From NCBI GenBank assembly GCA_007695115.1, contig REEK01000079.1, positions 1 to 34,046 on the forward strand: DNA of 34,046 bases, in the 5' to 3' direction. The notes beneath the pieces were generated by a model that saw only the letters and a program-made list of their open reading frames with translations, ran no database searches and had not been told where the DNA came from. The translations under genes were made by a program, and so were the position numbers. Within the stretch, counting starts at the first letter, position 1. Each line of letters begins with the position of its first letter. This stretch comes from Sphaerobacteraceae bacterium. GTDB lineage: Bacteria > Chloroflexota > Chloroflexia > Thermomicrobiales > Thermomicrobiaceae. Shown piece after piece: positions 6,105-13,302 of this stretch.

Positions 6105-7460
6105 CTACTCGCCCGGGAAAATCGGCTCTCCGTCGACCTTGATGTCCTGAATCAGTTCCTTGGCGAGGTCCACGATCTCCTCCGGTACCCGGGCGTAGCC
6201 GAGGCCACTGTTCCAGCGCTGCGCGTCGGTCACGCACCACCAGAGCATTCGTGTCAGGGCAATGCCCTTCTCTTCGTCGTCCATGTTCTCGTAGGCCAGC
6301 AGCCAGGTGAATCCGGAAATTGGGAAGGAATCCTCTCCCGGCGCATTCACGATGCGGTCTCGCAGCTGCGGATCGATCGAGTCGGCAAACGCGGCCGCGG
6401 CTGCGGTTACCGAAGATGTGCTCGGCAGGATGAAGTTCCCGGCCTGGTTTCGAACCTCGCCGACACCCAGGTCGTTCTGCAGGGCGTAGATCAGCTCGAC
6501 GTAGCCGATCGAATACGTGTTCTGCACAACCTCGCCAGCAACACCCTCGTTGCCATTTCCGCCGATACCGGTTGGCCAGTTCACTGAGGTTCCGACACCA
6601 ACGTTTTCGGCCCACTCTTCGCTGACCGCCGCCAGATAGTCGACCCAGATGAATGTCGTGCCAGAACCGTCGGAGCGGTGAACCACCAGAATCGACTGAT
6701 CGATATCTTCGAGCTGCGGGTTGTCTTCAACCAGCGCCGGGTCGTTCCACTCGGTGATTTCGCCCAGGTAGATTCCCGCCAGGGTCTCTGCGGTAAACCG
6801 CAGCGGCTCGGCAATATCGAGATCCGGGATGTTGTAGGTCGGGACAACGGCGCCCATGGCGACCGGGATGTGAAAGATGTTGCCGCCGCTGGCGTTTTCC
6901 AGCTGCTCATCGTTCATCGGGCCGTCGGTTGCGCCGAAGTCGACAGTACCGTCGGAGATACTGGCGATACCACCACCGGAGCCGATCGACTGGTAGTTCA
7001 CGCGAACGCCGGTAACCTGCTCGTACTCGTGGAACCAGCGACTGTAGAGCACGGCCGGGAAGGTAGCCCCGGCACCGTTGAGGGTGTCGGACTCGCCGTC
7101 GTATGGACCTTCGATACGGTCGTCGCCCTCGTATTCCCAGCCGTCGTCTTCGAGGAAAGCGTCTGCCTGCTCGACGTCCAGGTCAGATTCGACCTCATCC
7201 GGGTCGTCGAGATCGTCTTCGCCTTCTTCGTCTTCGTTGTCGTCTTCTTCGACCATTTCTTCAGCGTCGTCGGAAGAGTCGTCAGAATCCGGCTCGGCAG
7301 CTGCCTCGCTGTCGTCGCTGTCATCGTCTTCACAAGCAGCCAGCAGTGCGCTGATGGCCGGAATCGTCAGGCCGAGGGCAAACGCGCGCTTGAGTACCTG
7401 GCGGCGATCCATTTTGCCCGTGATTGCCGCAGCGTAGAGTTCTTCATACCTGGAAACCAT
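6105..7460 (-). CDS. pstS: Phosphate ABC transporter substrate-binding lipoprotein PstS (first copy)
   Basis: A 451-residue PstS with an unusual N-terminal half. Residues 1-43 contain RRQVLKRA, a hydrophobic segment and the lipobox LAAC (lipidated Cys43), a Tat-style lipoprotein leader. Residues 44-105 form a highly acidic Asp/Glu linker. The binding domain starts around 125 (LNGAGATFP) and shows VNYQSIGSGGG, DFGATDGPM, HRSDGSGTTFIWVDYL and YSIGYVELIYAL. The linker makes it about 60 residues longer than the second copy. The ATG directly abuts the TAA of the response regulator (zero-base gap) and GGGAG lies about 11 bases upstream, indicating translational coupling. It is the first transport gene of the operon. 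Confidence 0.95.
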   Translation of the reverse strand: MVSRYEELYAAAITGKMDRRQVLKRAFALGLTIPAISALLAACEDDDSDDSEAAAEPDSDDSSDDAEEMVEEDDNEDEEGEDDLDDPDEVESDLDVEQADAFLEDDGWEYEGDDRIEGPYDGESDTLNGAGATFPAVLYSRWFHEYEQVTGVRVNYQSIGSGGGIASISDGTVDFGATDGPMNDEQLENASGGNIFHIPVAMGAVVPTYNIPDLDIAEPLRFTAETLAGIYLGEITEWNDPALVEDNPQLEDIDQSILVVHRSDGSGTTFIWVDYLAAVSEEWAENVGVGTSVNWPTGIGGNGNEGVAGEVVQNTYSIGYVELIYALQNDLGVGEVRNQAGNFILPSTSSVTAAAAAFADSIDPQLRDRIVNAPGEDSFPISGFTWLLAYENMDDEEKGIALTRMLWWCVTDAQRWNSGLGYARVPEEIVDLAKELIQDIKVDGEPIFPGE

Positions 7461-10201: not shown

Positions 10202-10945
10202 ATGAAGCGTTTCTGGATTTCGATGATCGCAGCAGGATTGCTGACGATCGCCGCTATCGCTCCGGCCGCCGCCGATGAGCACTCCATGACGATCGACCTG
10301 GACGAGGTCGATGGCTCAGGTGTGTCCGGCACGGCAACAATGACTGAAACAGATGGTGAAACCACCGTCTCAATCGAACTCGATGGCACTCCGGAGGATG
10401 GCGTACACCCGGTTCACATCCACGCCGGAACCTGCGATGACCTCGGCGACGTGGTATTCCCACTCGAGGACGTCGTTGACGGTATGTCCGAATCAACCGT
10501 CGAAGCCTCGATCGATGACATCATGGCCGCCGATCACGCCATCAATGTCCACCTCTCGGAAGACGAGATGGATGTCTATGTCGCGTGTGGAAACATCGGT
10601 ACTGGCGATGAAGAAGACGACGCCGTCATGGATGACGATGCGGTAGCCGAGGACGACGACGATGCCGTGACGGATTATGACGACGACGCGGTAGCCGAGG
10701 ACGACGATGCAGCAGTTGAAGATGACGACGCTGCCGTGACCGATGACGATGACGCCGAAGCAGCCGACGATGCTGATGCGATCGCTGAAGAAGACGACGC
10801 AGCGGACGACGCTGAAGACCTCGTTCCTGCCACTGGTGGCGTTGCTGGATTCGGTGCCGAAGCCGGAATCCTGATGATGACGCTCGCCGCCGGCCTGACG
10901 CTGGGTGCAGGTGTTCTGATCCGCCGACGATCGCTTCAGATCTAG
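10202..10945 (+). CDS. Asp-rich anchored surface protein, paralogue 1
   Basis: A 247-residue exported protein of unrecognised function. Residues 1-24 are a signal peptide (MKRFWIS start, ending PAAA). Residues 25-132 form a small beta-rich domain with VHIHAGTC (H72, H74, C78), INVHLSEDE (H117) and VACG (C129), a His/Cys set that could bind a metal and faintly recalls CHRD or Cu/Zn-SOD-like folds. Residues 137-205 are a DDDDAV-type Asp-rich repeat. The end has VPATGG (208-213), a hydrophobic span (about 217-240) and RRR, a cell-surface anchoring layout reminiscent of LPXTG proteins. AAAGGGTAGGG lies before the ATG. It is first of three tandem paralogues, each with its own promoter. Architecture is seen; surface location and metal binding are inferred. 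Confidence 0.8.
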   Translation: MKRFWISMIAAGLLTIAAIAPAAADEHSMTIDLDEVDGSGVSGTATMTETDGETTVSIELDGTPEDGVHPVHIHAGTCDDLGDVVFPLEDVVDGMSESTVEASIDDIMAADHAINVHLSEDEMDVYVACGNIGTGDEEDDAVMDDDAVAEDDDDAVTDYDDDAVAEDDDAAVEDDDAAVTDDDDAEAADDADAIAEEDDAADDAEDLVPATGGVAGFGAEAGILMMTLAAGLTLGAGVLIRRRSLQI

Positions 10946-10957
10946 CATTCAAAGGCG

Positions 10958-10995
10958 GGTGCGGGGTCGCAGGGAGAGACAGGCGACCTCGCACC
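10958..10995 (+). terminator. Hairpin after Asp-rich paralogue 1
   Basis: GGTGCGGGGTCGC (10958-10970) pairs with GCGACCTCGCACC (10983-10995), 13 bp with one G-U, 12 bases after the stop. No T-run follows. Between it and the next promoter at 11216 I see nothing else supportable in this 411-base gene-free stretch. Confidence 0.5.
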
Positions 10996-11215
10996 ACCTG
11001 TTCAGCGCCAATCTGACAACACAGGGCCAGACACATCGAATGCCATTGACCTCGCAGACTTCTGCGGGGTCCACTTCGTTTATGTCGATATGTTCGAGCC
11101 GAAGGCTTGCCAATACTGCAGAAAGCGGCAGCCAGGCTTGCCCGCGCGGCCTGGGGAATCAGATGGTCGCATCCTGTATCCGCGACGATTTCCACGTCGT
11201 CTACCCGACGCACTA

Positions 11216-11244
11216 TTGCATGACGCGATAGAGCGTGCTAAGTT
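11216..11244 (+). promoter_or_regulatory. Promoter of the second Asp-rich surface protein gene
   Basis: TTGCAT (11216-11221), 17-base spacer, TAAGTT (11239-11244), giving a leader of about 110 bases to the ATG at 11357. Confidence 0.5.
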
Positions 11245-11356
11245 GTCTCCTGACGCGTAGGGAGGTCTGACCGAGGAGGGGCACGGTCAGGCAGGGAGGC
11301 GCGACATCGTTTCGTAATGGCGCCCCATGGATCACCAGGAAAGGGTACGGATCCCG

Positions 11357-12139
11357 ATGAAGCGCATCTGGGTTTCACTAGTAGCTGCCGCATTGCTGAC
11401 AGTTGCAGCGATCGCACCGGCAGCCGGACAGGACACCGTAACGATCGACATGCAGGAAGTTGACGATTCCGGACAGTCCGGAACGGCAAATATCACGTCC
11501 GACGGCGATCAGGTAGTCGTCTCCATCGAAATCGAGCCAGGTCCGGATGGTGAGCCACAGCCGGCTCACATCCACGAAGGCACCTGCCAGGATCTCGGTG
11601 ACGTTGCCTACCCGCTGGAAGATGTTGTTGACGGCGTTTCCGAATCGACTGCAGACGTCAGCATCGCTGACATTATCGCCAGCGACTACGCAATTGCTGT
11701 TCATCTCTCCGAAGATGAGATGGAGGTCATTGTCGCCTGTGGCACCACACCACAGATCGGTGGTGCACCAGCTGACGACGATGAAGCCGATGACGCAGTC
11801 GAAGACGATGATGCTGCCGAAGAAGATGACGATGCTGCCATGGATGACGACGACGACGCAGTCACGGACGACGAAGATGACGCCGTCACTGACGACCAGG
11901 ACGACGCTATGGTCGACGATGAGGACGACGCTGTCGCCGATGACGACGATGACATGGTCGAAGAAGATGACGATGCAGCAGTCGAAGACGATGATGCTGC
12001 TGACGACACCGAAGACCTCGTCCCGGCTACCGGTGGCGCAGGTATGGGTGCCGAGTCTGCTGTCATTCTGATGACCGTTCTCAGTGGCGCTGCCCTCGGT
12101 GGTGGCCTGCTGGTTCGCCGCCGGTTCGCGCAGGTCTAG
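11357..12139 (+). CDS. Asp-rich anchored surface protein, paralogue 2
   Basis: A 260-residue paralogue of the preceding gene with the same order of parts. The signal peptide is residues 1-25. The small domain keeps AHIHEGTC (H71, H73, C77), IAVHLSEDE (H116) and VACG (C128). The Asp-rich region spans about 140-220, and VPATGG, a hydrophobic span and RRR close the protein. The ATG at 11357 is chosen because MKRIWVS matches the paralogues' start and AAAGGGT precedes it; an ATG ten codons earlier would add an unrelated extension in front of the signal peptide. Its last 249 bases are almost identical to the last 249 of paralogue 3, although the N-terminal domains have diverged strongly. Function is not recognised. 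Confidence 0.8.
   Translation: MKRIWVSLVAAALLTVAAIAPAAGQDTVTIDMQEVDDSGQSGTANITSDGDQVVVSIEIEPGPDGEPQPAHIHEGTCQDLGDVAYPLEDVVDGVSESTADVSIADIIASDYAIAVHLSEDEMEVIVACGTTPQIGGAPADDDEADDAVEDDDAAEEDDDAAMDDDDDAVTDDEDDAVTDDQDDAMVDDEDDAVADDDDDMVEEDDDAAVEDDDAADDTEDLVPATGGAGMGAESAVILMTVLSGAALGGGLLVRRRFAQV
11891..12139 (+). repeat. 249-bp direct repeat, copy 1
   Basis: Aligns without gaps to 13054-13302, with nine differences counted by eye, including 130 identical bases in a row. It encodes the last acidic units, the VPATGG motif, the membrane span and the Arg tail. Confidence 0.9.
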
Positions 12140-12211
12140 TAGCGCAGAATCGCGGCACGTCCAGTAGCTGACAAATGTCTGGCAGCTCCCCAACTGGATA
12201 TTTCGAGCTCG

Positions 12212-12247
12212 ACGGCCTCGCATTCGTGCGAGGCCGTTGGCTATTTT
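12212..12247 (+). terminator. Intrinsic terminator of Asp-rich paralogue 2
   Basis: ACGGCCTCGC (12212-12221) pairs perfectly with GCGAGGCCGT (12228-12237), loop of 6, followed by TGGCTATTTT. It lies about 70 bases after the stop. The rest of the 311-base gap to 12451 contains only the next promoter. Confidence 0.75.
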
Positions 12248-12313
12248 CGGCCCCTGGAAACAACGATCTGTGCCAATGAGGCAGTATTCGGAGCAAAATC
12301 CCTCAGATCGGGA

Positions 12314-12342
12314 TTGAACGATTCACGGCGAGGTGTTATCGT
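12314..12342 (+). promoter_or_regulatory. Promoter of the third Asp-rich surface protein gene
   Basis: TTGAAC (12314-12319), 17-base spacer, TATCGT (12337-12342), about 108 bases before the ATG at 12451. Confidence 0.55.
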
Positions 12343-12450
12343 ATCGCGGACGGAGTATCACAAGGGCGGGCGGTGCTCGAGCGCGTACCGGTCTTCCAGA
12401 TGGCGCGGAAGACCGAGCTTCGAGTCGGAGTGAAAGGGTGGGTATTACCC

Positions 12451-13302
12451 ATGAAACGAATCTGGATTTCTCTAGTAGCAGCTGGGCTGCTCACAATTGC
12501 AGCCATTGCGCCGGCTGCTGGTCAGAACATCTTCAGTGTTGCACTGGATAGCGTAGATGATTCTGGCGTAAATGGCGGCGCCTCGATCCGCGGCGTTGAT
12601 GAGGGCGTGGAGATTACCGTCTTCATCAGCGGTGGCGACGAGGGCGGCGTGCACCCGGTAGCAGTGTACGAAGGCACCTGTGACGACCTGGGCGATGTCG
12701 TCTTCGAACTCGACGACATTGAAGATGGTGAGTCCGTCACCACCATTGATGACGTCATGCTTGGCGACATCATGAATGGTGAACACGCAATCAGTGTAGA
12801 CGCATCTGAAGATGATGATGCTGCCGTCATGTGCGGCAACGTCCCGGCCGTCGAAGGTCTTGACACCTCAGACGACGATGATGCAGTCGACGATGATGAC
12901 GCCGCCATGGACGACGATGACGACGCCGCCATGGACGACGATGATGACGCCGTCGTTGATGACGACGACGACGCAGTCACGGACGACGATGATGACGCCG
13001 TCGTTGACGATGACGACGACGCAGTCACGGACGACGATGATGACGCCGTCGTTGACGACCAGGACGACGCCATGGTCGACGATGAGGACGACGCTGTCAC
13101 CGATGACGACGATGACATGGTCGAAGAAGATGACGATACAGCAGTCGAAGACGATGATGCTGCTGACGACACCGAAGACCTCGTCCCGGCTACCGGTGGC
13201 GCAGGTATGGGTGCCGAGTCTGCTGTCATTCTGATGACCGTTCTCAGTGGCGCTGCCCTCGGTGGTGGTCTGCTGGTTCGTCGCCGGTTCTCCCAGGCAT
13301 AG
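12451..13302 (+). CDS. Asp-rich anchored surface protein, paralogue 3 (diverged domain)
   Basis: A 283-residue third member. The signal peptide (1-25) and the anchor (VPATGG, hydrophobic span, RRR-type tail) are conserved, and EGTC (C77) and CG (C128) remain. The HIH pair has become AVY and the later VH has become VD, so the putative metal ligands of the other two copies are lost. Its Asp-rich region is the longest of the three (about 139-250), with clear 8-residue units such as DDDDDAVV and DDDDDAVT encoded by 24-bp repeats. The ATG at 12451 follows AAAGGGTGGG and matches the paralogues; an earlier in-frame start would add 26 unrelated residues. Function is unknown. The repeat length suggests ongoing copy-number change. 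Confidence 0.8.
   Translation: MKRIWISLVAAGLLTIAAIAPAAGQNIFSVALDSVDDSGVNGGASIRGVDEGVEITVFISGGDEGGVHPVAVYEGTCDDLGDVVFELDDIEDGESVTTIDDVMLGDIMNGEHAISVDASEDDDAAVMCGNVPAVEGLDTSDDDDAVDDDDAAMDDDDDAAMDDDDDAVVDDDDDAVTDDDDDAVVDDDDDAVTDDDDDAVVDDQDDAMVDDEDDAVTDDDDDMVEEDDDTAVEDDDAADDTEDLVPATGGAGMGAESAVILMTVLSGAALGGGLLVRRRFSQA
12958..13053 (+). repeat. Tandem 48-bp repeat in the Asp-rich region
   Basis: 12958-13005 and 13006-13053 are adjacent 48-bp units differing at two bases. Each encodes two 8-residue Asp units, one ending AVT and one ending AVV. They lie inside a longer run of 24-bp units starting near 12890. Confidence 0.9.
13054..13302 (+). repeat. 249-bp direct repeat, copy 2
   Basis: Near-identical partner of 11891-12139, in the same frame and ending at the stop codon. 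Confidence 0.9.

Follow-up and report, generated by a model that had tools for sequence, protein, structure and literature searches.

The tandem genes and their probable sorting signals

The window analysed here (the whole stretch of 34,046 nucleotides; contig REEK01000079.1 of a Sphaerobacteraceae bacterium, assigned by GTDB to the Thermomicrobiaceae) harbours three adjacent same-strand paralogous genes (Table 1) for proteins whose N-terminal domain, as judged from a structure model, is of an already known kind, i.e., a short CHRD domain with Cu/Zn-superoxide dismutase (SOD) fold. A copper or redox function of this putatively surface-displayed, SOD-derived domain, amplified and partly decayed in the present genome, is the leading, albeit tentative, reading. 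All three proteins share a hydrophobic N-terminus, an Ala-rich cleavage region, a domain of ~105 amino acids (aa), an acidic stalk, a VPATGG motif, a hydrophobic stretch and an RRR tail. The putative signal peptide (hydrophobic core plus Ala-rich cleavage region) was read by eye from the sequence. This order agrees with that described for the three genes in an earlier note on this DNA, which also numbered residues H72, H74, C78, H117 and C129 correctly for protein 1. The motifs HIHxGTC, VH and CG, regarded by the note as common to all three, are indeed present in proteins 1 and 2, while protein 3 reads HPVAVYEGTC and SVDASED and retains of the motif residues only the two cysteines.

The paralogues are 57–62 % identical to protein 1, and the genes flanking the trio look unrelated to it. 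For gene 2, the ATG at 11357 was chosen as start over 11327, and for gene 3 the ATG at 12451 over a GTG at 12373. Long antisense open reading frames over the stalks (Ser-rich or Arg-rich) were rejected as by-products of the GAC/GAT repeats.

A tandem trio of homologues occupies the equivalent place in a second (sister) genome (L008) and in a third one (G134:C75), and a near-identical copy of gene 3 is present on L009; thus, the arrangement is not due to chance. A fourth copy of the window genome, located outside the window on contig C80, contains NIYEGTC (without HIH), an acidic stalk and VVPAAG. Since the gene 3 ortholog of the sister genome retains HIHEGTC, the histidine motif of gene 3 was most simply lost. 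Just downstream of the tandem genes of the sister genome, a 1162-aa SpaA-repeat protein with LPATG-transmembrane (TM)-RSRK end is encoded (L008:6971–10459, minus strand). Loci of the same kind were found in G000, G033 and G047. The nearest named relatives are the Thermomicrobiaceae metagenome-assembled genomes (MAGs) CSSed165cm and CSSed162cmB, the labels of which we take to denote the Cock Soda Lake sediment series; the window genome belongs to one genus with the CSSed MAGs.

Table 1 Features of the three tandem genes in the window
Feature	Position	Strand	Description and basis
Gene 1 (247 aa)	10202–10945	+	Putative signal peptide, CHRD/SOD-fold domain (HIHAGTC, INVH, ACG), acidic stalk, VPATGG, TM, RRR
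Gene 1, CHRD/SOD-like domain (aa 25–132)	10274–10597	+	H72, H74, H117, C78/C129; predicted by AlphaFold, Foldseek, VIA-align and profile alignment to SodC
Gene 1, acidic stalk (75 aa)	10598–10822	+	55 % Asp+Glu; sequence composition
Gene 1, predicted sorting signal	10823–10945	+	VPATGG (10823–10840), hydrophobic segment, RRR tail, stop; aligned with tails encoded beside sortases
Gene 2 (260 aa)	11357–12139	+	Layout of gene 1; HIHEGTC, IAVH and ACG retained
Gene 2, acidic stalk (90 aa)	11750–12019	+	58 % Asp+Glu; sequence composition
Gene 2, predicted sorting signal	12020–12139	+	VPATGG (12020–12037), TM, RRR, stop
Gene 3 (283 aa)	12451–13302	+	Layout of gene 1; VAVYEGTC and SVDASED instead of His motifs; cysteines retained
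Gene 3, acidic stalk (113 aa)	12844–13182	+	59 % Asp+Glu; 8-residue DDDDDAVx units
Gene 3, predicted sorting signal	13183–13302	+	VPATGG (13183–13200), TM, RRR, stop; aligned with tails encoded beside sortases

The VPATGG-TM-Arg tail of the three proteins, i.e., an LPXTG-like motif followed by a hydrophobic segment and a positively charged C-terminus, very likely represents a sortase signal, as its sequence aligns with tails encoded beside sortase genes. A search of the genome for sortases, proposed by the earlier note in support of export and an LPXTG-type end, yielded seven proteins above the cut-off (class F being the best fit for six and class E for one, with every score below the NCBIfam class cut-offs). 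Two of them, class F-like, are encoded directly downstream of the gene for a 157-aa poly-Asp protein (L014:840–1310, plus strand) containing DDQDDAMV units, with a VPAAGAGG-TM-RR end and no recognised domain. Further like-tailed proteins are encoded beside sortases in L013 (VPTTGAGG), L016 (LPKTGSGG) and L017 (VPAGTGS). Signal peptide, LPXTG-like motif, TM segment and basic tail are likewise known from class E/F sortase substrates, e.g., the chaplins of Streptomyces (PMC5148588), which differ by an LAXTG motif instead of VPATG. From this layout we infer that proteins 1–3 may be cleaved between T and G and covalently attached by a sortase.

Alternatively, the proteins could be plainly tail-anchored, with the C-terminal helix staying in the membrane in the absence of sortase action. 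A C-terminal TM segment is able to anchor exported proteins (PMC10924467), and none of the seven sortases is encoded on the window's own contig. However, an [LVA]PxTG-like motif is rightly placed in nearly every relative, sortases are present in 20 of the 21 family genomes, proteins with such tails are encoded next to sortases within the same genome, and a sortase gene is located near a CHRD gene in L038, making tail anchoring very unlikely. Judging by its LVPATGS-TM tail, a 521-aa protein of this genome (L057:175–1737, plus strand) with an acidic stretch and a weak match to YncE-like β-propellers is likely to be a sortase substrate, too.

Predicted fold and candidate metal-site residues of the N-terminal domain

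The AlphaFold model of the domain, for which seven close sequences served as input, has a mean predicted local distance difference test (pLDDT) score of 88. Comparison of this model by Foldseek and VIA-align retrieved Cu/Zn SODs throughout (Z 12–13 over 100–105 residues), with SodC of Mycobacterium tuberculosis (1pzs) representing the best solved match (Z 13.3, 105 residues, 2.3 Å, 31 % identity). Domain model and profile alignment agree in a SOD-like β-barrel of about 110 residues devoid of metal loops, as in CHRD domains. The profile search advised by the earlier note placed the domain of gene 1 at the edge of the Pfam CHRD family (PF07452; 24.9 bits with a cut-off of 24.1, the whole protein 1 scoring 22.6); gene 2 reached 15.8 bits and gene 3 gave no match, while 12 of the 15 family members matched at E ≤ 0.1. 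Hence, the note's statement that no characterised system has this layout does not hold for the domain; in Thermomicrobium roseum, a stalkless form of the protein bears the annotation CHRD domain-containing.

Sequence searches recovered the relation to SODs only faintly: the Pfam match to Sod_Cu was weak and covered the HIH half of the domain, a single-sequence search of solved structures returned nothing significant, and a 15-member profile yielded weak SOD matches only (E 0.29 and 0.79). The relation therefore becomes visible by fold and by profile–profile comparison. A methyltransferase match in the 15-member profile search was judged to be due to chance, and weak Pfam/NCBIfam matches to D-Glu_cyclase, a hydro-lyase and SepX were dismissed as chance or low complexity.

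In the profile–profile alignment with SodC sequences of the same class, HIHA-GTC falls on HIHETGTC, INVH on LVIH and VACGNI on IACGAI. Accordingly, genes 1 and 2 encode equivalents of three of the four copper histidines (H46, H48 and H120 of SOD1) and of both disulfide cysteines (C57 and C146; SOD1 numbering according to common usage and PMC13017621). As both cysteines align with those of the SodC disulfide, a disulfide fits better than the metal site for which the earlier note had considered them. Among 37 related domains, the cysteines are conserved in 97 % and the histidines in 76–86 %. A model of the whole protein 3 still displays a folded domain despite the loss of the histidines, with stalk and tail at low confidence and probably disordered. 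The same CHRD domain is also located at the end of an N-terminal region of ~500 residues in large exported proteins (L040, L041).

Gene neighbourhood and candidate function

The ortholog in T. roseum DSM 5159 (WP_012642595.1; NC_011961) has the same exported domain (HIHEGTC, INVH, ACG) and an APATG-TM-Arg tail, but occurs as a single copy with a neutral linker of 6 aa in place of the acidic stalk, and is followed after 13 bases by a gene for a cupredoxin lipoprotein. The map gene for methionine aminopeptidase flanks the CHRD gene in T. roseum and is also located near the genes in the window. A cupredoxin lipoprotein gene lies directly downstream of the CHRD gene in all 12 other Thermomicrobiaceae genomes that hold a CHRD gene, the downstream products matching Pfam Cupredoxin_1 and Copper-bind. 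These gene pairs, with map on the other side, are found in L096 (NC_011961, 415422–431742), L027–L037 and L039. In L038, from another family, the order is CHRD gene, cupredoxin and sortase. The strongest functional lead within the protein family is a 309-aa protein from a distantly related family within the phylum (L065:1030–1956, plus strand), in which cupredoxin, CHRD domain, LPNTG motif, TM segment and RRR tail are fused in one polypeptide. In four further genomes from three families (L044, L061, L072 and L076), a cytochrome c gene is located beside the CHRD gene. Neither cupredoxin nor cytochrome c is encoded in 29 control sortase loci, where CxxCH matches were taken, by reading only, as RNA-methyltransferase-like proteins or non-coding frames.

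Relatives beside or fused to copper electron carriers suggest a copper or redox role; together with the SOD fold they lend support to a possible metal or redox function, which the earlier note had listed among several possibilities. A literature search found no paper linking CHRD with cupredoxin and hence no prior description of this link. Many environmental bacteria possess CHRD domains, yet papers addressing their function in this group were not found. A concrete lead to copper or redox chemistry at the cell surface comes from the conserved neighbouring cupredoxin gene and from the fusion of cupredoxin, CHRD domain and LPNTG.

Based on the computed fold, residue correspondence, tail layout, sortase complement, gene neighbourhoods, fusion and acidification, we infer a tentative sequence of events comprising sortase processing, copper binding, electron or copper exchange and a function of the stalk. 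Each protein would be exported, and its minimal SOD-type β-barrel would fold and be closed by a disulfide (C78–C129 in protein 1). A class F/E-like sortase would then cleave at VPAT|GG and attach the protein to the envelope, the barrel being kept at a distance from the cell by a disordered polyanionic stalk. Family-wide, the barrel would carry a three-histidine site at the SOD copper position (H72, H74 and H117 in protein 1). On the outside of the membrane, it may hold copper, or exchange copper or electrons with a cupredoxin or cytochrome c encoded nearby. In the salt-lake genus, amplification would have given rise to three or four gene copies; the locus would have lost its cupredoxin partner, some copies their histidines, and the linker would have grown into an acidic stalk serving as salt-adapted spacer. 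As CHRD domain proteins with a sortase signal, the proteins are thus ordinary in kind, whereas their acidic stalk, tandem arrangement and partly lost histidine site are unusual features. One may speculate further, though this is rather unlikely, that an undescribed outer-surface copper redox module is widespread in Chloroflexota/Thermomicrobiota, in which a minimal, sortase-displayed three-histidine SOD-fold domain and a dedicated cupredoxin (neighbour or same polypeptide) cooperate to transfer copper or electrons through the envelope, the salt-lake genus possessing multiple copies on polyanionic stalks.

Several findings weigh against a copper or redox function. According to the profile alignment to SodC, the domain lacks the bridging histidine (His63, the fourth copper ligand) and the active-site arginine, the position of which is taken by tyrosine in gene 1; gene 3 and the fourth copy are without the His motif, gene 3 having no equivalent of any of the four copper histidines. 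Domain II of CCS, with three of the four copper histidines, cannot bind copper, although a different histidine is missing there (PMC13017621). In human chordin, the CHRD domains have the same fold according to crystal structures but contain no metal, and they bind heparin (PMC13382577). Of the 18 CHRD families sampled, only 6 have an electron carrier in the neighbourhood, compared with none of 11 in the controls (families counted by hand; Fisher p 0.058), and the Thermomicrobiaceae cases represent a single inherited synteny including map; more weight is hence given to the closely spaced, conserved pair and to the fusion than to these numbers. Moreover, a cupredoxin is missing at the window locus. 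Five cupredoxins are encoded elsewhere in the window genome, but their profile matches (E at least 7e-5) are far weaker than those of the orthologs (1e-34 to 1e-46), so that none is a clear ortholog. Finally, Pfam Gram_pos_anchor did not match proteins 1–3 up to E 10, while matching the related L065 fusion protein (E 1.3e-4); such a profile match is, however, a convenience rather than a requirement for a sorting signal.

A further view holds that the proteins are true extracellular copper-only SODs guarding the cell surface. Fold, disulfide cysteines and, in most copies, three of four copper histidines are shared with Cu/Zn and Cu-only SODs such as M. tuberculosis SodC, the top structural match, and fungal SOD5. 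A Cu-only SOD has been attributed to mycobacteria (PMC13017621), and SodC was found in none of the 18 family genomes listed. However, the bridging histidine, the zinc site and zinc loop, the electrostatic loop and the active-site arginine are all absent, and gene 3 does not even encode three histidines. Superoxide dismutase activity of the window domains is therefore unlikely, and a dedicated surface SOD highly improbable. Amplified extracellular SOD-like domains, some having lost the copper site, are also known as repeats within one polypeptide, many with intact four-histidine sites (PMC13017621), whereas the window contains separate genes, each for a single stalked domain.

The main rival is a metal-free scaffold, i.e., a SOD barrel repurposed for binding of glycans, minerals or other cells, with the stalk merely distancing the barrel from the wall. 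This possibility is somewhat less probable than a copper or redox role, and draws on chordin, whose CHRD domains (Pfam PF07452) are likewise short SOD-like Greek-key barrels without metal loops, contain no metal and bind sulfated glycans (PMC13382577). Also in line with it, several copies are without the histidines yet retain the cysteines, and tandem paralogues and changes in repeat length fit surface-display proteins. Chordin differs in that it is a single extracellular regulator with four such domains, lacks conservation of the SOD copper histidines, and binds heparin via a basic patch, while the domain here is strongly acidic. Conservation of the three histidines in most of the family, as well as the cupredoxin neighbours and fusion, for which a pure adhesin would offer little explanation, argue against such a scaffold.

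Acidic stalks and evolution of the array

The stalks are encoded by a 24/48-bp tandem repeat yielding DDDDDAVx-type units. Among the family members, an acidic stalk (57–115 aa, Asp+Glu fraction 0.53–0.64) is confined to the soda-lake genus (g1), the linker preceding the PxTG motif in the other members comprising only 6–10, almost uncharged residues. The folded domain is acidified as well, its net charge per 100 residues amounting to –23.7 in the genus versus –3.8 in the other family members; the charge of the cytoplasmic neighbour methionine aminopeptidase, by contrast, is barely shifted. Another exported protein in the window, a lipoprotein (6105–7460, minus strand) named phosphate-binding-like from its sequence, has a strongly acidic N-terminal stretch (Asp+Glu fraction 0.22, net charge –78). 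Since the domain and another exported protein are acidic and the cytoplasmic neighbour is not, general salt adaptation of exported proteins suffices, and is the simplest reading to which the acidity of stalk and domain points. The role as negatively charged spacer considered in the earlier note is supported. Within the family, naturally occurring stalked and stalkless versions of one surface protein can be compared, which bears on how exported proteins adapt to salt when cytoplasmic proteins do not.

Conversely, the polyanionic stalk itself may be the working part, with the domain being less important, by binding calcium or magnesium or by controlling carbonate mineral formation at the cell surface. 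The length of the stalks and their content of acidic residues (53–64 %) would be compatible with this, and the close MAGs bear CSSed names, a label used for datasets from soda-lake sediments (PMC6146748), where carbonate is high. However, beyond salt adaptation being enough to account for the acidity, Pfam listed no RTX or EF-hand match for proteins 1–3, so that a working stalk appears improbable.

Genes 2 and 3 of the window genome share 57 % DNA identity in their N-terminal parts and 96 % in their tails, compared to 64 % and 93 %, respectively, in the sister genome (L008). Between the two genomes, the orthologs are 68–78 % identical in the N-terminal parts and 72–75 % in the tails. Tails alike within a genome yet less alike between genomes indicate that they are homogenised within each genome while the domains diverge, most simply, as far as the sequences suggest, by gene conversion. 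The regions concerned by this apparent concerted evolution are 11750–12139 and 12844–13302.

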